Positions 29,795-51,697 of a stretch of 64,000 bases of DNA are shown piece by piece. The translations under genes and the position numbers were made by a program. Source of the stretch: Polytrichum commune. Taxonomy: Eukaryota; Streptophyta; Polytrichopsida; Polytrichales; Polytrichaceae. Below the pieces are notes generated by a model. The model was not told the origin of the DNA, did not search any database, and was given only the letters and a program-made list of their open reading frames with translations. The first letter of the stretch is position 1, and each line of letters opens with the position of its first letter. The stretch covers positions 45,255,169 through 45,319,168 of the forward strand of contig OX485806.1 in NCBI GenBank assembly GCA_950295325.1, read 5' to 3'.

Positions 29795-29951
29795 TGTTAT
29801 GAGAGAATAAAGATGGTATTTTGGACAGTATAAAGGTGCAATTATCCTAAGCTACCTGATACGGTCGAAGAGGGATTTTTAAGTATAAAAATAATAAAAT
29901 ATTAGTAAGTGCCACTTGTCACCATCTGAAGCACCCACGTGTTGGCCATAC
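29795..29951 (-). repeat. Copia 3' LTR, outer piece
   Basis: It matches 53156-53311 of the intact 5' LTR, with few substitutions (for example CTGATACGGTCGAAG against CTGATACGGTAGAAG). It stops at GTTGGCCATAC, where the gypsy element begins. The last four bases ATAC are repeated on the far side at 39782-39785. Confidence 0.9.
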
Positions 29952-30285
29952 TATCACGGTATGCGGCGTCGACGACTGCACCTTATCCGTTGGATTTCAT
30001 CCATCTAGATTTGGATGGATGAATATAGATGTGGAGAGGAAGGCTCCTAAGTAAGGAGCCTCCTCCTTGGCTTGGCATTCTTGCCAAGTCAAGTCTTGTG
30101 AGTTAGTGTGTGGAGAGAGCTTGTGTGAGGTGTAGATTGCATGATTTTGCAATAAATCTTGAGTTCTTCTCCCTCTACTTATACTCTTGGATTCTCCCTT
30201 GGTGGAGTGAGAGATAGCTTGACTAATTGTGTGCATTTGGAGAGAGATTTAGAGCTATTATGAGTGTTCTACTCTCTTACTTCTC
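29952..30285 (+). repeat. Gypsy repeat B, left copy
   Basis: The 334 bases starting TATCACGGTATGCGGCG match 39349-39675 at the right end with about 15 substitutions and one 6-base gap. A clear TATA-like or leader signal is not obvious, but the block CTTGGCTTGGCATTCTTGCC contains an imperfect dyad (TTGGCAAG nearby). In a standard element this position would hold the 5' LTR. Confidence 0.88.
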
Positions 30286-31723
30286 ACTTGGCAAGAATGT
30301 GGATGATTCCTTCTCTTTTCTTCAAATCTTGAGCTCCAACACTCGAGAAAGAGTGTGAAGACAAGTGGTTGCGAGATTTTGGAGTGGAGGAAGACAAACA
30401 TTGCGGATTCGTGGAGAAACAAGGAGGAAAAATGTGTGCTTGTGATGTGTGCACATCATTTTGAATTGTGGTGAGAAATTTCTGAATTTCCCACATAATT
30501 TAGTACCATTTGGTCGCTTGCAAGCTAAAATTCGCGCCATTGTTTGTTTGAAACGGATTCTTCATGCTAAGTGAAGAAGAAATTGATTCAATAAAAAAAA
30601 ATAGAAGGAAAGAGAGGCACCAGCTCCGGCTCCGGAGCAGAGCTCATGGCTGCCTTCCCCTTTCTGGTCGCGTCAGTCAGCGGCGAGGTCGGCAGCAGTC
30701 GGCGTCGGGGCGGCGGCAGTCGACGTCAGGGTCAGCAGCGGCGGGCTTGGCAACAGGTTGGACGACAAATACAATAGCAGCAGGCAGCTGCAGTAGCAGC
30801 AACAAGCAACTACTGCTGCTTGTTTCTGTTTTTTTTTAAATTTGGGTTCTTGTTTTTGTTTTTAATGCATTAATTCATTAAAAAGGAATTTTCTAAATTT
30901 TAATTTAATTAAATAATGAAACCTGATTTTTATTTTAATAAAATTAATAAATTAGTTTATGTTTCCTTCTCAATTTCTCATTTTTCTCTTTTCTCTAAGA
31001 GGTTAATTTCTTGGGCTCATTAATCAAGGATACAAAAAAAAAAAACCTAAGCTCTTATGAAATATTAAAAATACTTGGGATTTCTTTTTAGGAGTTGTAT
31101 TGTATGAAATTTCCAAAGGGAGTGTTATTAGAAATTGGGTGGCATGTGGAATTCCGTTCGGCCTCAAATAAATTATTATTAGGGTCGAATTGTGTTTGTC
31201 AACACATATTCCCGGCATTCTTGTGAGGAGTTATTCTTCGGTTGTAGTGGGAAGATGAGAGATGTGCATAGGTAGCATTTCATTTTCTTAAGCAACAGGG
31301 GCTCTTTGTTTTGACCACCAACCGCAGGCGGGTGCCGGTTGGAGGCGGTCAATTTTTAATTATGCTTAAGTGTTGTTTGGGGAAGGGGATCAAGTGTTGT
31401 TATTGCATTGTTCCTTGTATTTTGTTGTGGTATCTTCTCCCGTGGTGGGTTGTTGTGTTGGAGTCTTCCAACATTGCCCCATTTTTGTGTTGTCCTGGTT
31501 TATGATAGGGTATTGTGGGGGTGAGGTCGGAGTAATGACCGACGAGACCTTTGTTTGTGCACCAAGTGGGCGGTGCTTGTTTTCACTTGTGGTGAGGCTG
31601 GGTTAATGACCAGTAGACCATGTGGTGGTTGCAGGTGCAAGTTGCCTTTGACCTTTTTTTTCTTTGTACCTGGATACTAATTCATTTGGGTTGTTGATTT
31701 GGTGACCATTCCATTGTGGGTTT
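30286..31723 (+). other. Gypsy 5' leader
   Basis: About 1.4 kb between repeat B and the gag start. It contains a Gly/Arg/Gln-coding GC-rich patch near 30620-30810 (GCGGCGGCAGTCGACGTC, GCAGCAGC-type repeats) and a very AT-rich patch (30830-30990). No gene is recognised; no primer-binding site matching a familiar tRNA was found. Confidence 0.6.
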
Positions 31724-33020
31724 ATGGTTACAACTCGTATTCAACACTATCGTTCTTCGTCCCGAGGAGCATCGGAAGGTCATCCCTCGGACCTCTCGGA
31801 CGTTAAACCAGTAGTAGCACCCAACGAGGTTTTTCAGCCTACTTCAGCGTGGGGGACTATCACTCGGTCTCATGTCCTGTGGGTGGGAACCTTTGACGAT
31901 ATGGAAGAGGAGACTAGGGGAGGGATACGGGACCGGTTTTCCGGTCGAGCAGGGACCATTTCTCTGCAAGACTGGAAAATCCGGTTTCGTACGTGGATGC
32001 GAGAGAAACGCCAACGCAATACCAATTTTAATGATTGGTATGCGTTCGAGCTTCTGCCTCAGCATTTGGAGCATGAAGCTCTCCAAATTTATGAGCAGTG
32101 GACGGAGGCTCATTGGATGGAGCTACACCAGGTGGAGCGGTACTGGGAGACTCGGGTTGAGTTGGTATTCGCATTGAAGGAAGGCGCAACTTCCAGTTTC
32201 ATGGCCGTCCCTGAGGTTAAATCGGAGGTGCCGAAGGGAGTATTTGTGGTGGACGTGGAGGGAGCTTCTCCTGGTGAACCCAAGGATAAGGGTTCTGCTC
32301 CCGCTGTGGCGAGTACGTCGAGCCCCATTCTTCCATTCTCCCGTTATGCCCAGGCTACTCAGGCGGCTTTAGCCTCTTTGGGGGCTCCGCCAGTTTTTGA
32401 GCCGTTGCGGGTATTTGAGCTGCATCTACATGAGGAGTACGGAGGTTTTCGTCGGGACCAGATGCAGCGGATACAAGATTTTAGACACGAGATGAACGAT
32501 ACACCTCGTACCATGTATACGTGGTTGGCGAGGTTTGCCAGAGAATCTGGAGGTGTGTTTGCGGAAAGTCAATTGGTGAAGGTGTTTTTGTCCAAAATTG
32601 ACAAACGCCTCCTTGACTTGGCGCTGCCCAGGATCATCATGGATTATGGTGGTCGGACGACACTCGCTGAGGCATTCGCCATTGTGGAGCAGAGTGATCG
32701 TGCATTGTGTCAGCACGATGCCACTGATTTGGTGTCCCTGCTAGTAGATTCTAGCAAATCCCGAAGAGTTCTGGTTGCGGCTGTGGGATTGGCGGAGGCC
32801 GAGGTAGACAAGACCATGTATCGTTGGTCTTGTGGGCAGGCCAGCCACGCTAAGAAGGACTGTCCTTCAAAGCAAAGGTAAGCCCAGACCGTCACTACTC
32901 CGAAGCGGAAACCATTTGTTCCCGCTAAGGGCTCGGCGAAGGGGACGACGGGTAATCAGTTACCCAAGCAGTTGAGGTGTTCCCATTGTGGGCGGAACAA
33001 TCACACGGTAGAGAACTGTT
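31724..33020 (+). other. Gag domain with two zinc knuckles
   Basis: The retrotransposon Gag core lies near 32400-32720 (FELHLHEEYGGFRRDQMQ, TWLARFARESGG, KIDKRLLDLALPRI). A first knuckle, WSCGQASHAKKDC (about 32824-32865), lacks its first cysteine. After the stop at 32879 comes a complete CX2CX4HX4C knuckle, CSHCGRNNHTVENC (32978-33019). It would coat the element RNA and build the particle. Confidence 0.8.
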
Positions 33021-33769
33021 TTGCTCTCCATCCTGAAAAACGTCTTTCTTCCGACCGGGAGAAGACGTTGGAAGTGAAGATTGGAGCCATGGAAGAGAGG
33101 TTCAAAAGCTTGGCGTCATCCAGCCAAATTTTGGCCTCACCGTCTTCCTCCGAAGCTCAGGCTAGTTCTTCCACTCCGGATTACTATATGTTCGGAGCCT
33201 CGGGCGAGGTGGTGACTTCCGCGGCCATGACACGTGCTCAAGCCGTGTCACAATCCATACCTTCGACCACAAATGAATATGTGGCAAGCTCGCGAGCTCG
33301 GGACAATGCGCCCGCGGACCAAATTGGTCAGGCACAACTACCATTATCTTTTGGATTGGCCGATGCCGTCCAATCTGTCAGTGGTCGTCATCCGAACGAT
33401 GAGGTTTCACATTCAGCGACCGATGTGGCGCACACGTTGGCATCCAAGGCGTTGCACACACCTTTGTTCACGGCCATGGAGTGGTCATCGCCAGAGTTCC
33501 AACCTGCTAAGGTTTTTCACTTAGCAGGTAGGATTTTGGAAGAGAAGGCATCCTTACCTTCTCTGACTGTGGCTCAAGCCACTACGGACATCCCTGCTTC
33601 TGAAGATCCTGAGGATGTGGCCAAACGGCGAGAGAGACTTGCAGCAGAGACCATTGCGTCTTTTGACGCACACGCCTCAAATGACAAGGCACCGACCACG
33701 TCTTATGACTCACCAGTATCCGCGGGTACAACCTATCTGTCTGATGTCGCTGCTAGACCTGTCCGCGAG

Positions 33770-34190
33770 CGCCGCGGCATTCGACCCGGAGTTGTGCGTA
33801 TGGTGAATGATACCAGAATTTTGGTGGTCAGTCGCACTGGGAGCAATGCTACTCGGGTTGCTCCCCGTTGTGTGATGATGGATTCAGGGGCACAGCCAGT
33901 TATGATCGGCAAGAGGTTTGCCCAAGAGTTGAGGTTGACGGCCGAGGATTTGGCTCCCTGTCCATTCACCATTGTCACATCCATTGGTCACGTGGAGCGG
34001 GCCATGTGTTATACTCGAGAGCCATTACAGCTTAGCTTCCGAGTGAAGCATGGAGATTCACCTGCACCTCTTCTTCTTAGGTGTGCGGTGACGGATGCGA
34101 CCAACTATGACATTTTAGTTGGTCAGCAAGCACTTTACCCTCTTGATTTTGGATTGGACAACTGGACTGAGGAGGCGTGGATCCGACCAG
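33770..34190 (+). other. Retroviral-type aspartic protease domain
   Basis: The catalytic motif is MMDSGAQPVMIG, with the aspartate codon at 33881-33883. The fold continues through LAPCPFTIVTSIGHVER and TNYDILVGQQALYPLDF (the hydrophobic ILVG segment of retropepsins). It would cleave the polyprotein. It stands directly upstream of the methyltransferase. Confidence 0.75.
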
Positions 34191-34539
34191 GTTGGTCGGC
34201 TGGGGATGGCTGCAGGGAACTTATTCCCATGGCTTTCGCGGCGGCCACGACCATAGCACCATTATCTATGGTATTTGGATGTGGTACTATGGTGGACACA
34301 TTGCCTTATGGTTCCGCATTGTTGGAGGAGTCATTGGCATTCATGGGGAGTACAGACGATCAACGGGATATGACACCTAAGGGTGCATTGGTGCGGCATC
34401 CCAAGGATCCCCTTCCTCCTTGGCGTGTTTCCGCCGAGCTATTTTGGAGGTGCGAGGATATTGTTCACTCTCTCACTCCTAGGATACCGGTCATACCGGC
34501 TGTCCTCTCGGCATTGGCACAGCCCATTTTAAGGCAGCC

Positions 34540-35530
34540 GCCAGACGCGGGGATTACTTTGGTGGAACTGTTTGGGGGCATCGGCACAGGCTTAGCGGCT
34601 GTATTGGAGGCTGGCCTCACGGTTAGACGGTATGTCTATGTGGACAACTCTCAAGTGTCCACCCGTGTGGCTCGTCACCATCTTCACCAATTGATGGTAT
34701 TGTACCCCCAGTAGTTACCTCCAACTGCCATTCGTGGGTGTTTTTCACGTCTCCCTCGTGATGTTACACTCATCAGTGAGGCCGACTTACGACACTTGGG
34801 TCCGGTGGATATGATAATTGCAGGATGGCCATGCCAGGGCCATTCACGCGCTGGAGCCGGCCAAGGTCTAGAGGATCCCAGGTCTAGTCTATTTTGGGAC
34901 CTCATCCGCCTCATGCAGTGGTGGTTTTCCCACCAACATACCCCGCCAGGGTATATATTCAAGAATGTACCATTGTTGGGAGACCCTCGGGACAAGGTGT
35001 TGGAAGGCGATCATTATGTTCGTCAACACCTTGGAGATCCCATTTTTGTAGATGCCGCGAGCATTGGTTCTTATGCCCACCGGCCTCGGTGGATTTGGAC
35101 CAACCTCGCACCGTCATCTACTTTGGCCACAGCAATTTCTATAGTACCTCCACCTTTTGATCAGAAGGTGGATAACATCTTGGATCCAAACCGGACCTCT
35201 TTGCCGGTTGTTCGGGATGATTTACCCCCGTTGGCATTAGTCAACAAAGTGGGGGCACAACGGAGGGCCTTTCCCACCTTTATGACGTTTCCACAGTCAT
35301 TCGCCTTCCGCGATCGGGGGCCGGGTATGGTGTGGGATGCTAACACCAAAACCCACACTGAACCCTTGGCTGATGAACGAGAGCGTGCCATGGGCTTCCG
35401 CACTGGTACCACCGCAGCTCCTGGCCTTTCTGAGGGCCAACGACGCTTCGTATTGGGCCAAGCCATGGATCTCCATACCATGGTGTGGATTGTTAGTTTA
35501 TGCCTTGCATTGCAACGGCATCATGGTGAC
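34540..35530 (+). other. Cytosine-C5 DNA methyltransferase domain (DNMT3/DRM-like) inside pol
   Basis: The domain lies between protease and reverse transcriptase and shows the C5-methyltransferase motifs in the linear order of DNMT3. Motif I is FGGIGTG (34571-34591, S-adenosylmethionine binding), then RRYVYVDNS. Motif IV is GPVDMIIAGWPCQGHSRAG, with the catalytic cysteine codon at 34832-34834. The motif VI position is YIFKNVP, where the usual glutamate of ENV is lysine (34961-34963, one G-to-A change). Then follow DAASIGSYAHRPRWIWTN (motif VIII), a GFRTG segment, and RRFVLGQAMDLHTMVWI (motif X position). The AHRxRxxWxN pattern and DxxIxGxPC resemble DNMT3 more than DNMT1 or CMT. The full ancestral domain would methylate cytosine in DNA. 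This copy has one stop inside (34712) and the altered motif VI. It is not a separate gene; it lies in the gag-pol frame. Confidence 0.87.
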
Positions 35531-35869
35531 CAGTTATTGTCTCTGGGGGCAGAGGATTCTGGTCAGGGGGCACAACGGTCCACATCCATGAAGGAGGGAA
35601 TTGATGTCAGGGTTGGAGAAGCCGAACGAATCTTTCGATTCGAGCAGCAGGTAATGGAGGAGCTCCGAGCTCAACGAGTTTATACTGCTTTGGCTTCTTC
35701 ACCGCCGGTGGTGGCTTCATCATCACATATTGGTGGTGATGAAGAGGAGATGGACTCTACTGCTAGCACGGAGGTTGGGGGCATGGTTAATGCACCCTCC
35801 TCTCAATAGCAGTTAGAGTCCGTGCCAGCACCAGGTGGCTCTCTTCTAGTGGAAAGGGAGACCACAGAG

Positions 35870-37320
35870 TTTGATGATTGGCCGCTTGAATTAGGCCCTC
35901 GTCTCACTGGTGTTGAGGCACGGAAGGTATGAGCATTTATTCGCTCGTACCATAGATGTTTTGTTTTTAGTCTTCAGGATCTTGAAGGTTATAAAGGAAA
36001 ATCCATCCACATTTAGTTGGAGGACGACCATCACATTTTTAGGAGACCTTACATGCTTAGTGTTTCCGAGCGGATTGGCGTTCAGGCTCGTTGCCGAGAG
36101 CTCTTGGCAGCAGGGCTAATCGAACTTTCCAACGGGGAGTATGCTTGTGCTACGATTATGCCATCGAAGAAGGATATCTTTGGCAATTGGACGGAGAAGC
36201 GGATGTGTGGGGATTACCGTCCAATTAATCGGAAGACCAAGTCGAATCGGTATCCTATGCCGATCCCGGAGGAGTTGTTCGATGCCATCGAATTTTCTCG
36301 GGTCTTTAGCACCTTGGACTTGAAATCCGGATATCACCAACTTCTATTACTTACGGGAGATCGGGTGAAGACCGCATTTTGGGGAGTTGATCAAGATGGG
36401 AAAGATCAACTTTATCATTGGAAGTTTCTTCCATTTGGCCTGAAAAATGCACCCGCTGAGTTTTAGCGGGTGATGGATCAGGTTCTCTCTGGCTTGCCCT
36501 TTGCTCAGTGTTACATAGACGATGTGATCATCTTCAGCACAACACCACAGGAGCATGTGAGGCATCTTCAAGCCGTTTTTCAATGGTTGCAGCGGTGGGG
36601 ATTGCGCTTGCACCACGGCAAGTGCAAGTTTTTCCATGACCGGCTGGCATATCTAGGGCATATGATTGTTTCAGGAAGTCCTGGGGTACAACAAGCTAAG
36701 GTGGACGCCTTGCAGAAGATTCCGGCACCGGTTGATGTGTCGAGACTTCGTGCTTTCTTGGGTTTGGCGAATTACTATCGGCGATTCATCAAGAACTTTA
36801 GCTTGATCGCCAAGCCTCTCACCATTCTCACGAGCAAGGACCAACCATGGACTTGGGGTTGTGAGCAACAACAGGCGTTTGAGACATTGAAGCAGAAACT
36901 GGGTACGGCTCCAGTGCTTCGACGTCGAGATGTCTTCAAATCTTTCCAGTTGCATACGGATTGGAGTTCATTGGGTTTGGGAGCAGTTCTTACTCCCAAG
37001 GATGATTTTGGCCGGGAATATGTTGTTGCTTACGCTTCGCGAAGCAATAACACGGCGGAGGCTAATTATTCATCCTACGAGGGAGAAGCATTGACGGCGG
37101 TATGGGCTATTGCCCATTTTCGGCCGTATCCTTATGGTCAGCACTTTACTTTAGTGACTGACCATCAGCCGTTACGGTGGCTTATGGAGTCGGATAAGCT
37201 TACTTGCAAGCTTGCTAGGTGGGCTTTGTTACTCCAGGAATATGACTTTGAGGTGGTACACCGTGCTAGAATTACCAACATGGATGCAGATGGACTCTCA
37301 CGCAATCCAAGTCCTTCAGA
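35870..37320 (+). other. Reverse transcriptase and RNase H domains
   Basis: RT runs from about 36050 (RPYMLSVSERIGVQARCREL) through GDYRPINRKTKSNRYPMP, FSTLDLKSGYHQL, and the catalytic YIDD at 36512-36523. The usual AFWG and LPFGLKNAPAEF blocks are present; the stop at 36464 follows the latter. RNase H follows (TDWSSLGLGAVL near 36960, YSSYEGEALTAVWAI, TDHQPLRWL) and ends with NMDADGLSRNP. All the expected blocks of Ty3/gypsy RT-RNase H are recognisable. Confidence 0.93.
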
Positions 37321-37379
37321 TGAGGACTTGACTGGGGCCAGGTGGCATCGAGATTGTGATCGAGAGGCGGTTCCAGGTT

Positions 37380-38770
37380 GGCACGCGGCTGCCTACCTCA
37401 TTTTATTTTCTAGTGCATCTGTTGAGATTCTGATACAGGGCTCAGATAATGAGACTGATCGGCCTCAAGCTATTGCAGATATATGGGAGGATCTTCCCGT
37501 ATTGCATAAGCTTCAACAGGGTACCTTTCCTTTGTCTATTTCGGCAATGGAAAGGGATAGGATTGGACATCGAGTAACAAGGTTCTGTTGGGAGAACGGT
37601 TTGTTATTTCGATTGTGGCCGGATGGCACAAGGCGTATTGTTCCTAGGCCGGATCAGAGGGCCTCCTTGGTGCGACAAGTGCACGAGGAACTTGGTCATT
37701 TTGGCATACATAGGACACATTCGATGTTGCGTGGCCAATATTGGTGGACTGGCATGTATCAGAAGGTGGCTGCCTATGTCGGGAGGTGTGAAGTTTGTGA
37801 CCGGGTCAGGTCTAGCTTTAACACCTTATCACCTCAGTTACAGCCCTTACCTATCATGGGATTGGGCTACTGTTGGTCGCTCGACTTTGCAGGGCCGTTG
37901 GTGGTTACACCACGTGGAGCAAAGTACGTTTTGGTGATGGTGGAGTATTTTAGCAAGTGGATTGAACTTGTTGCTCTACCCCAAAACTCGACAGAGTTGG
38001 CCGCGGCCGCCTTTTTGGATCGTGTGTTAGCACGTTTTGGAGCACCGGCTGAGGTATTGACGGACCAAAGGAGGGAGTTTCTTGGTGCTTTTGAGGAGTT
38101 GTACACTGAGGCGCTCATAGATCACCGTACCACCTCTAGGGTTCATCCGGAGGCAGATGGTTTGGCTGAACGGGTTGTTCAGACAACCAAGTGTGGTTTG
38201 AGGAAGTATGGATTACTTCGGGGAAGCCACCGAGATTGGGACCTTATGTTGCCTTGGATTGCTATGGGCTATCGATTTAGTAGGCAGGCCTCTTTGGCAT
38301 CCTACAGTCCGTATCAGTTATTGTATGGACGTGAGCCTATTCTCCCGAGTTCTATTCAGGAAAAGTTAGCTCATGTTGTGGACCTGGATGACCCAAACAT
38401 TTGGGCAGAGTGTTTACAGGAGTGGGCTCAATTCTTCCAGAAAGCCATGCCTATGGCCATGGAGAATTTGTCCATTGCTCAGCACCGTGACACATTGCGT
38501 TATGCACGCATTCGCAGTGGTCCTTACCGACCTCAGTTGCGGAGATTCCGGCAAGGGGATTATATCTATCTCCAACGTGAGGCGCCTACGACATTGGATG
38601 TCAGGGCGAGGCGTACTATCCTTCAGGTGAAGGAGGTATTGCCAAGTGGTTTGTTGTTGTTGGAAAGCAAGGATGGCAGGGAATGTCGCGAGCATTCCAA
38701 AAATTGTGCCCCATGTCATCTACCTATTGGGGGTACAGTTCATCCTGAACTGGCCGTCGTGCGAGAGAGT
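37380..38770 (+). other. Integrase domain
   Basis: The zinc-binding HHCC part is HEELGHFGIHRTH then CEVCDR (about 37680-37800). The catalytic residues are D at 37883, D at 38063 and E at 38168; 34 residues separate the last two, one fewer than the common 35. A GPY-type stretch (SGPYRPQLRRFRQGDYIYL) leads to a C-terminal extension and then the PHD finger. Confidence 0.9.
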
Positions 38771-38956
38771 CTTCCATGTTCTGTGTGTGGAGAGAAGAAA
38801 TGAGCGGCTACTATGCTCTTGTGTGATCAGTATCAACGCGGTTGGCACATGGCATGCTTGAGGCCACCCTTGACTTCTCTACCATTTGGACAGTGGAGTT
38901 GTCCTCGCTGTCGAGGATCTTCGGTACTTGGTGCTTCTACCAATCGTACTCAATAA
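38771..38956 (+). other. C-terminal PHD finger fused to integrase
   Basis: After the integrase comes CSVCGEK, then, past the TGA at 38801, in the same frame, TMLLCDQYQRGWHMACLRPP and GQWSCPRCRG. This is the C4-H-C3 PHD pattern with its typical LLCDxCxRGWHxxC and WxCPxC blocks. One zinc ligand, the fourth cysteine, is tyrosine here (TAT 38831-38833, one G-to-A change from TGT). PHD fingers bind histone H3 tails; at this place in the polyprotein it could steer integration, like the chromodomain of chromoviruses. Both the stop and the cysteine loss make the copy non-functional. Confidence 0.83.
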
Positions 38957-39231
38957 TCATGTGTGGTTTTCATCATCTTGTGCCTATCCAAATGGAAAAT
39001 GAGGAGTTATGGCTTAGAGACGCAATCAACATGAGGCGGTGGATTTAATTCTTTGGGATCTGATGGCCAAACATCAAAGGCGATTAAGGATGGGGCTCAC
39101 CTTGCACCCAGCCTACAGTTCCTTGGAATAACGTTTACCAAACTAGTTAGTTGCGGAGCAATCTTTCATTATCCATGCCCTTTAGATTGGCGTTGGTCCT
39201 AGCTGCTTGGCGGGACTCCATAGTCAGCTGA

Positions 39232-39240
39232 GAGGGGGCA
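39232..39240 (+). promoter_or_regulatory. Gypsy polypurine tract
   Basis: GAGAGGGGG followed by CA stands immediately before TGTCGAG. A purine run just upstream of an LTR primes plus-strand DNA synthesis. Its position fixes the 3' LTR start at 39241. Confidence 0.75.
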
Positions 39241-39346
39241 TGTCGAGCTGTGTTGTTTATGTGTGACTTTGCTATGTTTTAGTGTTGTTTGTTAGTGGTG
39301 GTTGGTACTCGAGCTGCAGTGACACATAATCGCTATTTACACGACA
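39241..39346 (+). repeat. Gypsy repeat A, first copy (106 bp, TGTCG...CGACA)
   Basis: Starts TGTCGAGCTG and ends ACACGACA, so the ends are inverted TGTCG/CGACA as expected for an LTR. It is 106 bases and differs from the second copy (39676-39781) at six positions. The left end of the element lacks any copy. Confidence 0.85.
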
Positions 39347-39675
39347 GCTATCACGGTATGCGGCGTCGACGGCCGCACCTTATCCGTTGGGTTTCATCCA
39401 TCTAGATTTGGATGGATGAATATAGATGTGGAGAGGAAGGCTCCTATGTGAGGAACCTCCTCCTTGGCTTGGCATTTTTGCCAAGTCAAGTCTTGTGAGT
39501 TAGTGTGTGGAGAGAGTTTGTGTGAGGTGTGGATTGCATGATTTTGCAATAAATCTTGAGTTCTTCTCCCTCTACTTATACTCTTGGATTCTCCCTTGGT
39601 GGAATGAGAGATAGCTTGACTAATTGTGTGCATTTGGAGAGAGATTTAGAGCTATTATGAGTGTTCTTACTTCTC
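39347..39675 (+). repeat. Gypsy repeat B, right copy
   Basis: Matches the left B copy (29952-30285). It stands between the two 106-base A copies and ends at TTACTTCTC. The left copy goes on to ACTTGGCAAG at this point, so an A copy follows B only on the right. Confidence 0.85.
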
Positions 39676-39781
39676 TGTCGAGGTGTGTTGTTTATGTGTG
39701 ACTTTGCTATGTTTTAATGTTGTTTGTTAGTGGTGGTTGGTACTCGAGCTGCAGTAACACACGATCGTTATTTACACGACA
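39676..39781 (+). repeat. Gypsy repeat A, second copy (106 bp)
   Basis: Starts TGTCGAGGTG and ends ACACGACA, directly followed by the ATAC target duplication and the inner half of the copia LTR. With its partner it gives the right end the order A-B-A', against B alone on the left. Confidence 0.85.
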
Positions 39782-40079
39782 ATACCTACACAAGTTGAGG
39801 TCCAGGTTTATACCCTCGGGATAACCGGGGTTTGACTGCACTAACTTAACTTAACTCCCTAATACCCTCGGGATACCCGGTTTATAATATGTAGTGTTAA
39901 AGCTTCAAGCTGCAGATACCCAGGTTAAGTCTCGGGTCACTATTAAACTATATACCCTGGTTCCAGGGTATCCACCCTAAGCCTCAAATGGTTTTCTACC
40001 CTAAGCCTCATATGGCTTTTACACCTTAAGCCTCATATAGTTAATACATCAGATTGTCTTTAATTCTAATTCTCTAACA
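39782..40079 (-). repeat. Copia 3' LTR, inner piece
   Basis: Continues the LTR interrupted at 29951. It matches 53308-53606, including the repeated phrases ACCCTAAGCCTCAAATGG and TACCCTCGGGATACCCGG. Ends ATTCTCTAACA at 40079. GGGATAACCGGGG, CCGGGATACCC-like and CCCTGGTTCCAGGG elements give the LTR several short dyads. Confidence 0.9.
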
Positions 40080-40467: not shown

Positions 40468-43400
40468 CTAGTTCAGTATCCGTTCCATCGTCCGTAGCCA
40501 CACCGTCTCGCGAGCAGCTTCATGAAAAGCCGGTAACTCCGTGTGATTTGTCGAAGTCGCGGTAACTGTTTGCTTGGTTGATTTCCATGATATCGGGGCA
40601 CCACATTTCAGGAAAATGTAATCGGTTTGTGAATTTCCTGCATTCAAATCAGTTCTAAATCCGGAATTTGCAAAACCTTGGATTTTAGGGTGGTTAATTT
40701 TGTGGTAGTATAACCCAAGGTCGGATGTCCTGTGCAGGTATCTTAACAAATGTTTAACTCCATTCCAGTGTCTTAAGGTCGGGTTCTGGCTGTGCTTAGC
40801 TAGGATACTCGTAGCAAAGGCAATATCGGGTCTTGTATGAGTTGTCAGGTACGTAAATGCATCAACCGCGGTGAGGTACTTAGGCTTATCAACTACCTCC
40901 TCCTCCTCCTCCTCCTCACGAGGTTGGTAGGGATCATTGTTACTCTTACTGCGTCCAATCATGGGAGCTGCTAACGGATTTGCCTTGTCCATTTGAAACA
41001 TCTTAAGGATTTTTTGCACATAAGCTTGTTGGTGTAAGAGGATACCACCATTGGACACGTAATGGACTTGAAGGCCTAGGCAATACGTAGTCTGGCGTAG
41101 GTACTTCATATCAGAATTTTTGGTTAGAATTTCTTGTGCATACGTACATGATTTAGGCGTGCCTAGGATGTTTAAATCATCAACATACACGGCAAGGATA
41201 AAAAATCTTGAATTTGTACTGTAAGTAAAAATGCAAGGTAGGGTGTTATTGTGTATAAACCCATGTGATATGAGGAAATGGCAAAGGTGGTGATACCACG
41301 TTCTGCCCAACTGTTTCAAACCATACAAAGCCTTACAAATGCGTAAACTCATAAATTTACCTGGTTTCGGCTTAGGAATGAATTTCAAAAATCCGGGTGG
41401 TGGGGTTAGATGGAGTTTGGTATCGAGGTTACCGTGTAGGTAGGCGGTAACGACATCCAACAAATACATTTTCAAAGAAAATTGAATTGACAAGGCTAAG
41501 AGGTACCTGAATGACACAGTGTCCATAACAGGTGAATAAGTTTGGTCATAATCAATACCGGTCCGTTGGAAAAGCCTTGGGCGACAAGCCTAACCTTATA
41601 TCGAAGGACTCGTCCTTGGGAATCAAGTTTCCGGGTAAAAATTAGTTTGTGACCTATAATGGTTTATCTAGGTCGATGGAAATATTGCCAAACACACGAT
41701 ATTTTCGTAAAGACGAGTATTCGGTTTCGATGGCGTTTTTCCAATGAGGCCAGTCCGAGCATTTCATTGCTTGATCTAAGGTGGTAGGATCGGGTAGCGA
41801 GTCTAAAGACTCAGTTGTATAGTGGATTTTGGATTGTTTGGCTGGTTTTGGGTTTAACGGAGTTGGGTCCGATCGTCTTCGAGGCAAAACGTTGCCAGTC
41901 CCTAGTATTGGGTTGCGGATAATTTGTGGTTGGGTTGAAAATCTGTCCGGAGTGTTTTCGGCTAACATGCGTAGGTTAAGAAGTTTAATAACTTCGGTAT
42001 TGGCTAATGAGGTAGGAAGATCAAGGTTCGAGGTTAGAGTCTTTGGTGCACCAAAATTCAAGGGTATTTGGGTTGGGGATGAGGTTAAGGTTGGGAATTT
42101 GTGTTCTAAAAATTTGCAGTTTGCAAATCGGGTTTTGTATAAGGCTCGGGTTATCGGATCGAGATGTCTGATTATGGATGGAAATCGAATCCAACATAGA
42201 TGCCCTCTTGGCGGTGTGCACCAATGGTATGTCTTTTTGGATCGGATAAAGGTACCCACACTTGGCATCCAAACACGCGGATGTGTGAGATATTAGGTGG
42301 CCTACCGGATAGCAACTCATAAGGAGTTTGGGTATTAAGCAAGGTTGGTCTCAGTCGTAACAAGGAGGCTGCATGTAAAACAACATTATCCCACATGTTA
42401 GAAGGTAATTGAGCATGTAAAAACAAAGGTCTAGCAACCAATTGAATTTTCTTCACAAATGTTTTAGCTAGGCTGTTTTGTGCATGCTCGTATGAGACTG
42501 AGTAGGTCAAAGTTATACCTGTTGCTATGCAGTAATCTTCGAAAGCATGAGATCTAAACTCTTGCGCATTATTCATACGAAGATATTTGATAGGATTATG
42601 AGGGAAATGGTTTTTGTAACAAATAAGGATCGTTAAAAGCTTTGGAAAAACCATATTACGAGTTGGAAGTAATGCAACTTCAAAATGACTTCCTGGTACG
42701 TCAACTAGGACAAACTAATATCGAAATACCCCTCATGGTGGGTTAATTGGACCATATATATCCCCGTGAAGTCTATAAAGAGGAGGGGGAAGTTCCGTTG
42801 GTAATGTCCATTTTGACGGCTTCTTAATGTATTTCCCCTGAATATAAGTCACACACGCATGTGTTTTCTCAGCATCTGCTGTGACGAGGTTATGACTTGT
42901 CAATAAAGAAAACATCCAGTGAAATATTGTCGTGTCTGGATGTCCTAACCTCTCATGCCATAAGTCAAGCTTGGCTTTAGTATCTACAGATACTCCCTTC
43001 TCCAAGTTGCGGCGTATTGCTTCAGGGTCTCCAGTCCAAGCAGCCATGCACACATCTTCTTCATCTATCAGTGAGATGGGGCTCTTGTTGTCAAGGGAAT
43101 TTATGACAACCTTGTATAGGCCGTCGTCTCCCGCTTTTGTGGTGGCAAGGATCGTCAGCCCTTGCCTGAGCTCCAAAAGCTCTTCATCATATTCTACCGC
43201 AGTGGAAACGTGAATATTCCTCGCTCTTAGATCCCTGAAGTTGATCAGACTACGAGGCGCGTCTAGAGCATACATTGCTCGTGGACAATTGAGGGGGAAT
43301 CCCACGGGCAATATCACCGTTGCCCGGCCCTCCCGAAATCTTATATTTCAGCTTCCTCCCATTGTAATTATATTACAATGCTGCTAGGGTTCCTCATTTC

Positions 43401-45993: not shown

Positions 45994-47906
45994 GGGGGGG
46001 CCGCACCCAGGGGTCCCAGCCCGGAGACGGAGCGGTAACCGGTCAAAATGCCCTACCGGAGGCCGCAAACGCCGGGTACAAACTGGGCAGTCTATAGGGG
46101 TGCCAGAGGCATGCTTGGGGCCTGACCTTGCCGGAAAACGGAGGCTCGCACAGGCTTCGGGAGGGTTTTCAACCGGTGCCTCAAAACAACTTTAGGGGTG
46201 GTCTTGGATGACAACGCGCTCCCCGAGGACAGACTCTGTCCACCACCGCCCTATCACAGCTGACTACACCGTCCCTCTTCGCAGGCACGCCCTGTAGTGT
46301 ACGTGCTCCGCTCCAGGAGTTTGCTTCGCGAGGGGGTTTGGTTGATGACACGGCAGCGGCAAATTTTGTTGCTCGCGCGTTGTCTGGGTTTAGCGGTTGT
46401 GGTCAATGCGTTTGATTGTGGCGCATCGTGGACGCCGAGTTGCCAGCTCGTTTTGGAGATTCGTCGCGTGCTCGGGAGGGTTGTTGTCCGGTGGGGGGGT
46501 TGAGCGCGGAGGGCCGCGGGCCGCTGTGTTTCGCAATCTGCGCTTCGGACCAATCTGGTGAGTGTGCTGGTGGTTCTCTTCTGGAGTAGAGATGTGCAAA
46601 CGCTGCGCACGCTTGTGCGTCTGTGTGTTGTGATGCCGCCAGGGATGCATACAGTCATGTTGGCGTGGGTCTCGGGAAGCTTGGGTGCGGTCAGAGCGCG
46701 CTCGAAAACCTCGCGCCCAATTTCCATCTCCATTCTCCCCTTCTCTTTGCGCCTCCTTCTGTTGTGCTCTTTCCGGGGTGGTCCGAGTTCTCATTTTCCC
46801 GCGCGCGCGGGCGTGGTTGGATTGGACACAATGTGTGCGTCCTGGGGTTTAGCGTGACCGTTGTTCGTGCGTTCCTTGCTGCTGCCGAATTTTGCACTGC
46901 CCTCCTGTTGTCGCGGAGGTCGCCCTGTCTTCCCTCCGTCGACATGTCGTCCAGCCGTCGCCATATCCATCCCTTTCTCTGTCTTCAGTGTATTGGTCGT
47001 CAAAGGCTCGGGTTTTTCTGCGTTCTGCACACTCTCTCTTCCGTCTCCTGTCATGTTGTGCTGGTTCTAGTCCGTGGTTGGAACTCCTTCCTTGCATATC
47101 ATGGCCCTCCCTGGGCTCAATGGCATCATTTTTGTGTTGGTTCTGCCACAATCTTCTACCAGCCAGTGATTGATGGCACCTCCGTTCAATGTGGAGCACC
47201 CTTATATGGCCCCTCATGCGCCCCCCGCATTGCACTCCCATTAATCAGAGCATTGCACTCACATTAATCAGAGCATGGAACTCCATGCTCGCACGTTTTT
47301 TCTTGATGATGTTCTCCTATATTTGAGTGACTGTGAGTTTGGGTGCGCTTTTGTGCGGTTGCGGCCGGTTGTTGCGATGATCATGTGTCGCATTCACGGC
47401 TCCTGCGGTCTCGACGCTCCCAAATTGTTTTCCGACTGTGGTATTGGTAAGGAGCTTCGCGGTCTTTCCTCATTTCTTATATACATCTCCATGTTGTGCT
47501 CCTGCCTTTGGTGTTGGTTCGATGTTCATCATTTTTCCCTGTTCTGCGTTGTTGTGTCTTCAAATTGTATTTACAACATGGCGCCCGTCGGTGCTTTGGG
47601 TAATGTGATTGCTGGGAGGATGTGGGGGTCTGGGGAGCATGCGTCCTTGACGAAACTACAGCTGCATTGCAGGGATTGTGTTGGTTGCCTGACTGTTGTG
47701 TCTGCACTTGGCCCCCAAACATGCGATTGTTGCTTGCTACATTGGAGCCCCCTTGCTTCCAGTTGAGGATGTATGCGTACATTGAGTCTGTGGGATTTGC
47801 GGCATCAATCCATGCTGGTTGTTTTATTTGCTTGCATTTTTTTTCCAGCAGCTGCATCTCTCACTGTGGGTGCTGCGTGTGTAATGGGAAGGTGCTCTGA
47901 CCCACG
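45994..47906. other. Left non-coding part of the Harbinger element
   Basis: After the terminal repeat the sequence is GC-rich, with open frames on both strands (46254-46733, 46623-47267 and others), none recognised. It probably holds the promoter and possible first exons of the plus-strand SANT-like gene. It includes a short duplication CATTAATCAGAGCAT near 47240-47275. Confidence 0.5.
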
Positions 47907-48998
47907 ATGGAGGACATCGTCGATTTGGAGGGTGACTCGTATTTCCCCTCCACTCAACAGCCAGCCGAGGTGGAGGTCGAGCATGGACCAGGGTTCCCGG
48001 ACAACGACACGCCTTTATCCAGCAGTGCAGCAGCCAGGCGTGGCCGCGCAATGGGTGGAGCCAGTGGCAGTCGCTCGCTCCCAGGTCTTTCACAAACACA
48101 ATGTTCAGGTCCACACAAAGTGCGCGGACCCAACTGGACCGAGGCTGAGATGCTTGTCCTTATAGGGCAGAAACGTATCGAGTGGGATGGGAGGCACAAC
48201 TACAACCAACCTTCTCTGGCAAAGTTTGTCTACGGCACCATTGCGTGGAAATTGGTGTTGGCAGGGTGCATGTCTGTGGTGGGCTTCCGGGTGAGAGATG
48301 CCGACCATCTCACAAACAAGTGGGATGGACTGATAAAGGACTACAAAAAACTCAAGGATTACATAGAGGGAACAGGTTCAGCTAATTGGTGGGGGATGAA
48401 TAGAGAGCAAAAGAGAGATTTGTGTAAAACTAGGAAATTGCCTCTAGAGTTTAGTGAGTGCATGTACGCCGAAATGGAGAGCTTTGTGGGAAAACGCCAG
48501 ATTTTTGGGCATGCGGCAGACGTGGTGGACTCTGACCGCATCGGCTCGCCGCAGGCCAAGAACTTTGGCCGCACACCCCCCTCTCCACGCCCAACTATCA
48601 ATGTAGGTGCAAGCAGCCCAGCCACTAGTTCCACAACCGCACACAACAACCCCGGGGGTGGAACACCTGGAGATGATATTCCAGGTTCCACTGGCCGCAA
48701 GCGCAAGGCGGCAAGCAACGTAAATCTTGTGGATTTTGTGAAGGACTTTAACTATGAGTACCTTGCACGAGTGGAAGCACAAGAGAGGGACAAACGCTCT
48801 TGGAGGACTGAGGTAATGGCGCTTGACACGGCGCGAGAGGCCCGCATTGCAAACAAAGACGCTGAAGCTTCAAGCATGGACAACAAACTTTACGAATTGG
48901 AGGTGGAGAGGACTAGAAATTTGAGCAACATGACCACTGCATTGTTAATGTTGGCATCGTCCATGGACACCCTTACCAGGTTCATGTGTACAACCTAA
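47907..48998 (+). CDS. PIF/Harbinger SANT/Myb-like DNA-binding protein
   Basis: A 363-residue open frame starting MEDIVDLEGD. A Myb/SANT trihelix-type domain lies near residues 75-165 (NWTEAEMLVLIGQKRIEWD, LTNKWDGLIKDYKKLKDYI, and WWGMNREQKRD). It is followed by a Pro/Ser/Thr-rich linker and a C-terminal helical part rich in charged residues (LARVEAQERDKRSWRTEVMA). In this family, the second protein binds the transposase and helps bring it to the nucleus and to the element ends. The frame is intact and the stop (48996-48998) is 185 bases from the end of the convergent transposase. Confidence 0.85.
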   Translation: MEDIVDLEGDSYFPSTQQPAEVEVEHGPGFPDNDTPLSSSAAARRGRAMGGASGSRSLPGLSQTQCSGPHKVRGPNWTEAEMLVLIGQKRIEWDGRHNYNQPSLAKFVYGTIAWKLVLAGCMSVVGFRVRDADHLTNKWDGLIKDYKKLKDYIEGTGSANWWGMNREQKRDLCKTRKLPLEFSECMYAEMESFVGKRQIFGHAADVVDSDRIGSPQAKNFGRTPPSPRPTINVGASSPATSSTTAHNNPGGGTPGDDIPGSTGRKRKAASNVNLVDFVKDFNYEYLARVEAQERDKRSWRTEVMALDTAREARIANKDAEASSMDNKLYELEVERTRNLSNMTTALLMLASSMDTLTRFMCTT

Positions 48999-49183: not shown

Positions 49184-50755
49184 TCACCTAGGCAAGTCGT
49201 CCACGTCCATCAGTGGGAGGTGGCAATCCGCAAGTATTTGGTCCAATGTGCAGTCTTTGCTTGCCAATAGTATGTTGTGCAACACACAACATGTGTGTAC
49301 AACTATGGGCATGAAGTCGAGTTTCAAAGAGGACCTCCCGCCAATCTCCTTGAACCTCGCTTTCAGTATCCCAAACCCTCGTTCTACGCTCATACGGGTT
49401 GACGAGTGCTTGCGGTTGAACCACACCTCCTCGTGTGTGAGAGGCATACCCATGGGCCCCAGCTTGTATGGTGTAATGCACCAACTTAGAAGAGGGTACC
49501 CACGGTCCGCCACTATGTAGGGTGGAAATGGTAGTGCCGCAGGCCAGGTCATAGGATCGTCGTGGAATCCTCCCATGACGCCCTCCTCGACCTTCCGGTA
49601 CACTTCCGTGGACTTGAAGTGCGTGCTGTCATGCAATGAGCCGGGTGGTCCCGTGTTCACGGAAGTGAAATAGCACTTGCTGTCCACGACTCCCTGTAGC
49701 AAAATAGAGAAAGACTTGTTGCGGTTTCTGTGGTCTGCCGCCACGATACTATTGGGAGGTGCCGCAATGTAGATGTGTGTGCCGTCGATGGCCCCAATGC
49801 AATTCGGCATCCATTGTTTGGACTGGAAGGCGGCCGTCACCCTCGCCAACCTTCGCCCAACAGGCCAGGCAATTAGGTGTCCAAAATGAGAGCTTATGGC
49901 CGAACAAACTTGCCTCAAGATTCCATACACGGTGGACTTACCTAGTGCGGCTTTATCGGCCACAAGCGGTATAGATACACCATGCACGAGTTTGAACAAT
50001 GTGACAACGACCTTCTTCTCCACCCCAATAGGTTGTCTCCAATGAGTTTGTTGCCCTTGTATGAAAGGGCAAAGGTCGTGTACAAGCCTGTCGAATGTTA
50101 CCCTCCGCATTCTCAAAATGTCGTAGAACATGTCCGGTGTGTATATTTTGAATAAGGATTCTTCAAACCAGCACGTGGACCGGGGCTTCACGTACCACTT
50201 TGCATCCAAAAGTTGAATGTGCCAAGCTATGAGGTCGTGGACTTGCCTTTCGTGGGGGTGAGGTAAGACGTCTTCACCGGACTCAAACCTTTGAAATGCA
50301 ATGCTGGCATGGTCGGAGCAGGGCCCATGGTCGCCACGCCTAGCCTTTTTCCTATATGCAAGTTGGGTTCTGGTTGCCTCCATTGAGGTACTGTGCATGT
50401 GCAGCATCACCACCGCAATGTCAATGCTTGCCATTATGATGGGCACTATGGCGGCAACTTTGGCCACTGCGATTGACTGCTGGGTTGGTGAACTGTGCAG
50501 AGGCATGTTGGTTGCTGTCCCGTCGCGCGACACATCTGCGGTGCATGGAATCCTTGCAGGGACCGGAGGCGGAGACCACTCATCGCCACTGCATGCCACC
50601 GACAGGAGGGGAGACGTCGGGGATGGATGCAGAGGTGGAACTTCGCAGACAGACCGTCGTGGATACAGGGGTGGGGAGCATGAAGAACGGCGCTCCAGCT
50701 CGGAGCCGGAATGACTTGCATCGGTGTATCTCGGGCGTGCAGCCTTCATGACCAA
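49184..50755 (-). CDS. PIF/Harbinger DDE transposase (HARBI1-like)
   Basis: A 523-residue intact frame starting MVMKAARPRYTD. The N-terminal part is Ser/Pro-rich, then a helix-turn-helix region (MRRVTFDRLVHDLCPFI, VEKKVVVTLFKLVHG, LGKSTVYGILRQVC). The DDE endonuclease follows with GAIDGTHIYIAAPPN (first aspartate), VNTGPPGSLHDST (second acidic block), YIVADRGYPLLSWCITPYK and SVERGFGILKARFKEIGG (final glutamate). These are the HARBI1-family blocks. It would cut at the element ends and at TTA/TAA targets. A stop at 49184 ends the frame. No stops interrupt the catalytic core, so activity is possible. Confidence 0.88.
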   Translation of the reverse strand: MVMKAARPRYTDASHSGSELERRSSCSPPLYPRRSVCEVPPLHPSPTSPLLSVACSGDEWSPPPVPARIPCTADVSRDGTATNMPLHSSPTQQSIAVAKVAAIVPIIMASIDIAVVMLHMHSTSMEATRTQLAYRKKARRGDHGPCSDHASIAFQRFESGEDVLPHPHERQVHDLIAWHIQLLDAKWYVKPRSTCWFEESLFKIYTPDMFYDILRMRRVTFDRLVHDLCPFIQGQQTHWRQPIGVEKKVVVTLFKLVHGVSIPLVADKAALGKSTVYGILRQVCSAISSHFGHLIAWPVGRRLARVTAAFQSKQWMPNCIGAIDGTHIYIAAPPNSIVAADHRNRNKSFSILLQGVVDSKCYFTSVNTGPPGSLHDSTHFKSTEVYRKVEEGVMGGFHDDPMTWPAALPFPPYIVADRGYPLLSWCITPYKLGPMGMPLTHEEVWFNRKHSSTRMSVERGFGILKARFKEIGGRSSLKLDFMPIVVHTCCVLHNILLASKDCTLDQILADCHLPLMDVDDLPR

Positions 50756-51697
50756 AATCCTTAGTTAGAATTGCTCATTAGTTAGTGCAGTCACGTTAGG
50801 CCCAAGGTCACGCACTCAGCAGGAGCGGTGGCGATGGCGGCGACATTTTCATAGAATGTAGGTGTGCAAATGGATAGAATAACATTAGCAAGTGCGGAGA
50901 CCCATGTCAATCCCGCATTTTGGTGACACTGATTGTAACACTCACACGGCATAAAATTTTAATCTCAATTTCTGCACCAATGTGTGTTTCTATGTTTGTT
51001 TCTGCACCAATTGGTTATGTGGTTGTGTGCTGATAACATGAGCCTGTCCTGAATAACGGCGAAATAGCCGCAGGCGATGCAAAATGACATGCCCACTCTC
51101 TGCGATTTGTTTGTTCTTGATGCACTCCCCTCAAAGCAATCGAAACATTTCCCACAATCGTGCACGCAACTGAACGGAAGACCCATGCTGCTGCGTCATT
51201 CCGAAAGTGGCGGAATTGGGTTCAAGCATTTCCACATGGACGAGGACACTCAAATGGATGGGATAGATGCGGAGATGTCGCACAAACTTTGAGTGGCAGA
51301 TGGCAGATGGCACCCAAATGGAACGGCAAGTGAAGAATGCGTCGACATGCCAAAATCAAAGGAAAGCACTGCCCCGCACCAAACTGGATGTGGGAGGCGG
51401 ACAGACAAGGCAGCAAACATGCAGGTTGGCGGTGGGAAAACAAACTCAAACAAATTGCAGGAGAAATGAGGAGCACAGAGATTCCGAATGCACACGCCAA
51501 CAGGGGGAGGGGCACAATTGACACCGAAATCAATGGGCGGCAAAACACAGGGGAATAGAATTTCACAATGAAACCACTGGAGCATAGGCCAGTGTGATGA
51601 CAAGAATAATGCGGTGCCCAAAGGCACCACAAGTGTTTTGCGATAGACCACGAAAACTGAACTTCTAAAACTTGATGCACCTGTGGCTGCAGTGTTT

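Follow-up and report, generated by a model that had tools for sequence, protein, structure and literature searches.

A methyltransferase domain in a gypsy-type element

The stretch of Polytrichum commune DNA analysed here (64,000 nucleotides in all, hereafter the window; assembly GCA_950295325.1, contig OX485806.1, positions 45,255,169 to 45,319,168 of the forward strand) contains, at window positions 29952-39781, a single insertion of a decayed Ty3/gypsy-type retrotransposon with a C5-cytosine methyltransferase domain among its coding regions. With ATAC on either side, the element reads in the order repeat A copy 1 (A1), primer-binding site (PBS), leader, first open reading frame (ORF1), stop, reverse transcriptase (RT)-RNase H-integrase, PHD finger, polypurine tract, repeat B copy 1 (B1), GC, A2 and B2, all on the plus strand. 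The ORF1 remnant (31724-35806, 1361 codons) runs from gag through zinc knuckles and protease to the methyltransferase, and the ORF2 pieces (36017-38800), which encode RT, RNase H and an integrase with H2C2 and DDE core, match Pfam RVT_1, RT_RNaseH, Integrase_H2C2 and rve. The gag region gave no match in the Pfam scan of the element pieces, and the protease was identified mainly by the DSGA motif of its active site (MDSGAQ, 33878-33895), its Pfam match being weak (E 0.04). With that qualification for the protease, the order protease-RT-RNase H-integrase with a DDE integrase is that of Ty3/gypsy elements.

The methyltransferase domain (34562-35470, motifs I to X) preserves in a single frame VELFGGIGTG (34562-34591), AGWPCQ (34820-34837), FKNV (34958-34969; ENV in others), AHRPR (35075-35089), DERERAMGF (35372-35398) and LGQAMD (35453-35470), flanked in the same frame by the protease motif and, at 36512, by the RT motif YIDD. 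Pfam scored the piece 34715-35806 as DNA_methylase (PF00145) with E 2.6e-11 and 44 bits against a cut-off of 22, and chance occurrence of the domain is excluded because this piece has at least 113 matches in the P. commune genome. An earlier note on this DNA had recognised a DNMT3-like methyltransferase within a Ty3/gypsy element, between protease and RT in one reading frame, and had proposed alignment to C5-methyltransferase profiles as a check; the motifs and the PF00145 match uphold the identification, and the motifs do share one frame, although stops interrupt it in the window copy. Profile scores against the PDB and fold comparison point to the DNMT3 type, nearest to DNMT3A/B; CMT was not among the rows listed in these comparisons, which excludes nothing. 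The motif order, I-IV-VI-VIII-X, is unrearranged, and a DRM identity, which would need a rearranged order, was rejected. A structure search of BFVD returned phage and giant-virus methyltransferases at a query TM below 0.5, and a viral contig scan gave no match.

The window copy itself is dead. Its frame contains six stops beyond the conserved one at 35807 (TAG) and before the last TAA at 38954, namely 32879 TAA, 34712 TAG, 35930 TGA, 36014 TAG, 36464 TAG and 38801 TGA; the first two break ORF1, the second of them inside the methyltransferase domain between motifs I and IV, and that at 36464 interrupts the ORF2 pieces. Motif VI has Lys in place of its catalytic Glu (ENV to KNV), and a zinc ligand of the PHD finger has changed from Cys to Tyr. 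Among the 41 sequences compared, the window included, AGWPCQ is kept in 34, ENV in 36, HRPR in 34 and ELFGGIGTG of motif I in 32, and an alignment of 14 relatives shows no variation in PCQ or in the Glu of motif VI.

Copies, selection and relatives

The family is large and recently mobile. In the P. commune genome (408 Mb, 64 contigs searched), matches to PF00145 numbered at least 123, and their union with the domain-piece matches gives at least 181 distinct methyltransferase loci, merged by hand and script and counted as loci rather than as individually confirmed element copies; of 353 candidates in the PF00145 search 123 were scored, with values of 42-52 bits throughout, and host DNMT genes could not be separated from element copies. 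A methyltransferase match lies 0-5 kb upstream, on the same strand, for 80 of the first 100 of 136 RT matches (mode 1752 bp), and three of six copies read among the 20 unpaired ones do carry the domain. Sister copies thus share it at a fixed place, one of the checks that the earlier note had suggested. Forty of them were retrieved (L009-L048, ranks 2-41 of the domain matches), a sample ranked by match and so biased towards similar copies, and several have open frames of about 1366 amino acids spanning the domain. Two subfamilies, about 60% identical within the domain, both retain it.

The earlier note had also asked for a ratio of non-synonymous to synonymous substitution (dN/dS) below 1. Among stop-free sequences, the mean pairwise value was 0.307 for the domain (n = 27, including the window piece), against 1.06-1.11 in out-of-frame controls; elsewhere it was 0.124 for RT (n = 18; controls 0.98 and 2.20), 0.166 for RNase H (n = 23; 1.09-1.51) and 0.21 for integrase (n = 26; 0.94-1.12). 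These values are rough, as pairs have common branches and include neutral change after insertion; judged by them, the methyltransferase domain is under purifying selection. Separately, differences between A1 and A2 over 17 copies, the window included, comprise 56 transitions (2 of them assigned to CG) and 5 transversions, an excess that fits cytosine deamination and does not tell host methylation from self methylation.

The integrase ends in a PHD finger (38777-38911), recognised from PF00628 (E 3e-8 over 38 amino acids) and from the sequence of the relative P0090, and broken in the window by the 38801 TGA and the Cys to Tyr change. Its pattern occurs in 26 of the 41 sequences, some with an internal stop, and, by hand count, in about 40 of the 120 RT-integrase relatives listed (the best 120 of 1203 matches), including the K. 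nitens protein P0149. The best sequence matches include the PHD fingers of CHD4, PHF12, KDM5, ATXR5 and UHRF1, which are readers of the histone H3 tail. Chromoviruses carry a chromodomain rather than a PHD finger.

Named relatives of the methyltransferase domain come from Sphagnum troendelagicum, Calypogeia fissa, Marchantia polymorpha and Closterium (P0158); the RT-integrase relatives listed add Klebsormidium nitens and Riccia sorocarpa, and the majority of relatives are unnamed metagenome proteins. One element protein, P0006, whose intact domain was the one modelled, is filed as a DNA cytosine methyltransferase of a Candidatus Obscuribacterales metagenome-assembled genome, where it is probably plant contamination. 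A second layout, RT-RNase H-methyltransferase-integrase-PHD, occurs in P0223 and P0239, and in P0066 and P0067 the methyltransferase lies between RNase H and integrase, adjoining the latter. In an unrooted tree built from 32 domains, after 4 of the 36 sequences picked had been dropped for a missing motif or length, a branch at 96/93 separates these four and P0073 from the rest, and the four alone are grouped at 88/58; the layouts of P0213, P0219, P0221, P0224, P0226 and P0230 were taken from length and Pfam. The domain probably either moved once within the polyprotein or was acquired twice, alternatives between which the unrooted tree does not decide.

A readthrough-type stop, putative self-priming and split repeats

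The stop that follows the domain (35807-35815 with its context, TAG CAG TTA in the window) is TAG in all 40 of the 41 sequences that cover it, the window included, which rules out decay as its origin. The six bases after it are CAATTA in 25, CAGTTA in 14 and TAGTTA in one, so that 39 of 40 have CAR TTA; in the second subfamily TAG CAATCA stands in 16 of 16 copies read, with residues on both sides differing from those of the first. Both sets (39/40 and 16/16) fit UAG-CAR-YYA, the readthrough motif of tobamoviruses (PMC3542737), and in 11 of the 40 sequences the frame past the stop is open throughout the 500 codons read. As read from the sequence, the methyltransferase is the C-terminal part of a gag-protease-DNMT ORF1 ending before a conserved stop. 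The earlier note had placed it inside pol; it does lie upstream of RT and in frame with it, but would be inside pol only after readthrough. Since UAG-CAR-YYA is kept in two subfamilies with different flanking residues, the enzyme is probably made at Gag level, the likely products being Gag-protease-DNMT in bulk and a minor Gag-protease-DNMT-RT-RNase H-integrase-PHD.

The 14 bases directly after A1, a putative PBS (ACTTGGCAAGAATG, 30286-30299), are the exact reverse complement of a putative self-primer within A1 (CATTCTTGCCAAGT, 30076-30089). A self-complement of 13-15 nt occurs in 13 of the 16 copies with the site seen (L064 and L066 are limited by the retrieved stretch, and L053 keeps 9 nt), while the best complement elsewhere in the leader is 9 nt. 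In Tf1-type self-priming the PBS is complementary to the element's own 5' sequence (PMC4600332, PMC6317226), and the length of the self-complement makes this the better reading here, no search for tRNA complements having been made.

The terminal repeats are split. A1 (29952-30285) and A2 (39349-39675) are 96.9% identical over 320 columns in the window, a difference of 3.1%; B1 (39241-39346) follows a polypurine tract recognised by eye (GAGAGGGGGCA, 39230-39240) and is separated from A2 by a GC spacer (39347-39348), and B2 (39676-39781) ends the element with TTTACACGACA. The 3' ends of 40 copies read B-A-B in 25, B-A in three (two of which end with the retrieved stretch), end at B1 in six, belong to an internally deleted copy with one B in one, and have neither in five. 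Twenty 5' ends were retrieved and A1 was seen in 16, its start being included in 10 and cut off by the retrieved stretch in six; four have no A. The window copy starts with TATCACGG, whereas the 10 others with a start read have TGTCACGG, and in 10 copies with the start read no B precedes A1. The B1/A2 junction is GC in 19 of 20 copies read and in the window (AC in L009). In the second subfamily, three 3' ends were read: L093 has B-GC-A-B, L092 has B-GC-A up to the end of the retrieved stretch, and L091 ends at B1. Copies ending exactly or nearly at B1, without A2-B2, are L024, L037, L044, L045, L047, L048 and L091.

Target duplications fix these ends. Exact 4-bp duplications lie directly outside the start and end sequences in 10 of 11 testable copies, including the window (ATAC at 29948-29951 and 39782-39785), against 0 of 110 in a cross-pair control; the ten have no common sequence by eye. 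The left end is thus A and the right end B, rather than the same long terminal repeat (LTR) at both, and an ordinary LTR element with a repeat of about 300 bp as its LTR was rejected, as the 106-bp repeat and the duplications show A-coding-B-A-B. Nested insertion of a repeat is ruled out by the recurrence of B-A-B in 25 of 40 copies. The split direct repeats are of the DIRS type, but the integrase is rve and no tyrosine recombinase match was found in the pieces scanned. DIRS elements are not known to make target-site duplications.

Judged by the positions of the polypurine tract (before B1) and the PBS (after A1), the LTR would be 'B-GC-A', yet the insertions end at its internal GC. The palindromic junction sequence ACAGCTGT has CA ahead of GC on each strand, an arrangement that retroviral integrases trim. 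The split repeats together with the exact duplications therefore argue for integration at an internal ACA-GC-TGT site, and cutting a two-repeat circle at one of its GCs would give the observed order. Extra bases at the A2-B2 junction in two of the 19 shown (L026, L028) fit end joining.

Beyond the right end, the element adjoins a Ty1/copia RT piece (window 40468-41589, minus strand; PF07727, E 1e-38). Farther along, a Myb/SANT-like ORF (47901-48998, plus strand), weak and under the Pfam cut-off, neighbours a DDE_Tnp_4 transposase ORF (49184-50764, minus strand), a pairing that we take to be the layout of a PIF/Harbinger DNA transposon.

Known systems, proposed mechanism and meaning

Retrotransposon-borne methyltransferases, which the earlier note had mentioned for dinoflagellates and a charophyte alga, are indeed published. 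In KnitGypsy-Dnmt3 of Klebsormidium nitens, gypsy domains occur together with a Dnmt3 domain and with repeats of DIRS-like order (de Mendoza et al. 2018, PMC5890265), and according to a general statement in PMC12344493, streptophytes and dinoflagellates have retrotransposons (LTR Copia and DIRS) in which DNMT3 members are embedded. Set against the text of PMC5890265, the present family has the same combination, with LTR gypsy domains, a Dnmt3-type coding domain, intronless copies, DIRS-like repeats and purifying selection. The paper puts the domain in the Pol ORF; the present family ends ORF1 with it, before a readthrough-type stop and in frame with Pol, a possible difference in placement. 'PHD' is absent from the paper's main text, with whose description, rather than with the KnitGypsy sequence, we compare. 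SymbioDIRS-Dnmt3 and SymbioLINE-Dnmt of Symbiodinium are likewise retroelement-borne, the DIRS form with repeats A-coding-B-A-B, but the former has a tyrosine recombinase and the latter no LTRs, in contrast to the DDE integrase (rve) and 4-bp target duplications of the present family. Tf1/Sushi and Tj1 resemble it in a PBS complementary to their own 5' sequence (PMC4600332; Tcn1 in mosses, PMC6317226), and Tj1 needs a stop at the Gag end for efficient integration (PMC4600332, PMC6317226); they differ in having ordinary LTRs, DNMT is not mentioned in the accounts consulted, and a term search of Neumann 2019 (PMC6317226) found neither 'methyltransferase' nor 'PHD'. The tobamovirus replicase has the same stop and six-base context (PMC3542737), whereas the present case is a retrotransposon. 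Among the titles listed from the open-licence PMC literature, none besides PMC5890265 concerned bryophyte DNMT elements, PHD fingers in gypsy elements or split-repeat gypsy elements. The kind of element is already published for a charophyte; in the literature searched we did not find in print a Gag-side DNMT with a readthrough stop, the PHD finger, end-fixing target duplications, self-priming or bryophyte members.

We propose, with a probability of roughly 0.7, that this gypsy-type family encodes a de novo methyltransferase of DNMT3 type at the C-terminal end of its ORF1 and works as follows. Most ribosomes would stop at the UAG, so that the methyltransferase would be produced at Gag level and packaged, while the polymerase part would come from the few that continue past the stop. 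Reverse transcription would prime itself from the 5' repeat of the element; the LTR 'B-GC-A', bounded by polypurine tract and PBS, would be cut internally by integrase at the palindrome ACA-GC-TGT, the substrate probably being a circle that contains a pair of these repeats. Once packaged, the enzyme would probably methylate cytosines in the cDNA of the element itself or at the site of insertion, and a copy would thus arrive already marked; the PHD finger would probably direct integrase towards chromatin whose H3 tails are in a particular state. We infer the methylation activity and its purpose, and self-methylation by the element, suggested in the earlier note, remains a hypothesis; for the Symbiodinium DIRS elements, cDNA methylation was proposed by the authors of PMC5890265.

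Several observations weigh against this proposal. The nearest known domain, that of KnitGypsy-Dnmt3, gave no methylation in yeast, in a test that its authors judged inconclusive (PMC5890265). The domain's dN/dS is about 2.5 times that of RT, hence its constraint is weaker, and the catalytic stretch is altered in some relatives, with EC in place of PC in P0127, P0158 and P0239 and PCQ lost in Marchantia P0228. Absence of the domain from sister copies, the finding that the earlier note had set against itself, is mostly not seen, but two of the six unpaired RT copies read show none and another only 37 residues in the 901 bp read. Nor is Gag-level expression general: in P0127, in P0158 and in two gene models (P0194, P0228) the stop is missing and DNMT is fused to RT. 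L017 is the one testable copy without an exact target duplication, and for L024, L037 and L047, first-subfamily copies ending at B1, the expected 5'-side flank match was found in 0 of 3, which the circle model leaves unexplained.

Some of these points would suit a domain that serves as a nucleic-acid-binding or structural extension of Gag, catalysis being unimportant: its place at the Gag end, the raised dN/dS, the altered stretches in a few relatives and the KnitGypsy result in yeast. The catalytic motifs are mostly kept, however, among the 41 sequences as among the 14 aligned relatives, and we regard such a role as distinctly improbable. A recently captured passenger or chimera without function, which the many broken copies, the window's among them, might suggest, is scarcely credible, being already contradicted by the purifying selection and by retention of the domain in two divergent subfamilies and in bryophyte and algal relatives. 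The enzyme might instead act in trans, making or keeping heterochromatin as a safe haven for PHD-guided insertion or silencing competitors rather than marking its own cDNA; the PHD finger with its H3-reading matches and the probable Gag-level production would both serve this, but the target duplications have nothing in common by eye, and we consider it unlikely. The UAG, for its part, could be a plain ORF1 stop, with ORF2 expressed by reinitiation or from a spliced or subgenomic RNA. The database ORF2 proteins P0090 and P0091 start with Met soon after the stop, but a Met is where ORF callers begin by rule; against this, ORF1 and RT share a frame that stays open beyond the stop, in some copies for all the codons read, and the CAR-YYA context recurs in two subfamilies with different residues, so that we doubt this explanation and prefer readthrough.

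Beyond the family itself, we tentatively suggest, as a possibility short of an even chance, an ancient streptophyte lineage (Klebsormidium, Closterium, liverworts, Sphagnum and P. commune) that would couple a Gag-level DNMT3-type writer, made via viral-type readthrough, to an integrase PHD reader, cut a palindrome within its LTR on a circle, and methylate new copies before or at entry. The present data place a methyltransferase-bearing retroelement, some of whose copies moved very recently, in a lineage that has relatives in liverworts and Sphagnum. Three of its features lend themselves to separate tests, namely the placement of the enzyme at Gag level, the PHD finger, and the pairing of split repeats with an integrase of retroviral type, and the benefit to a transposon of writing DNA methylation becomes testable in land plants.
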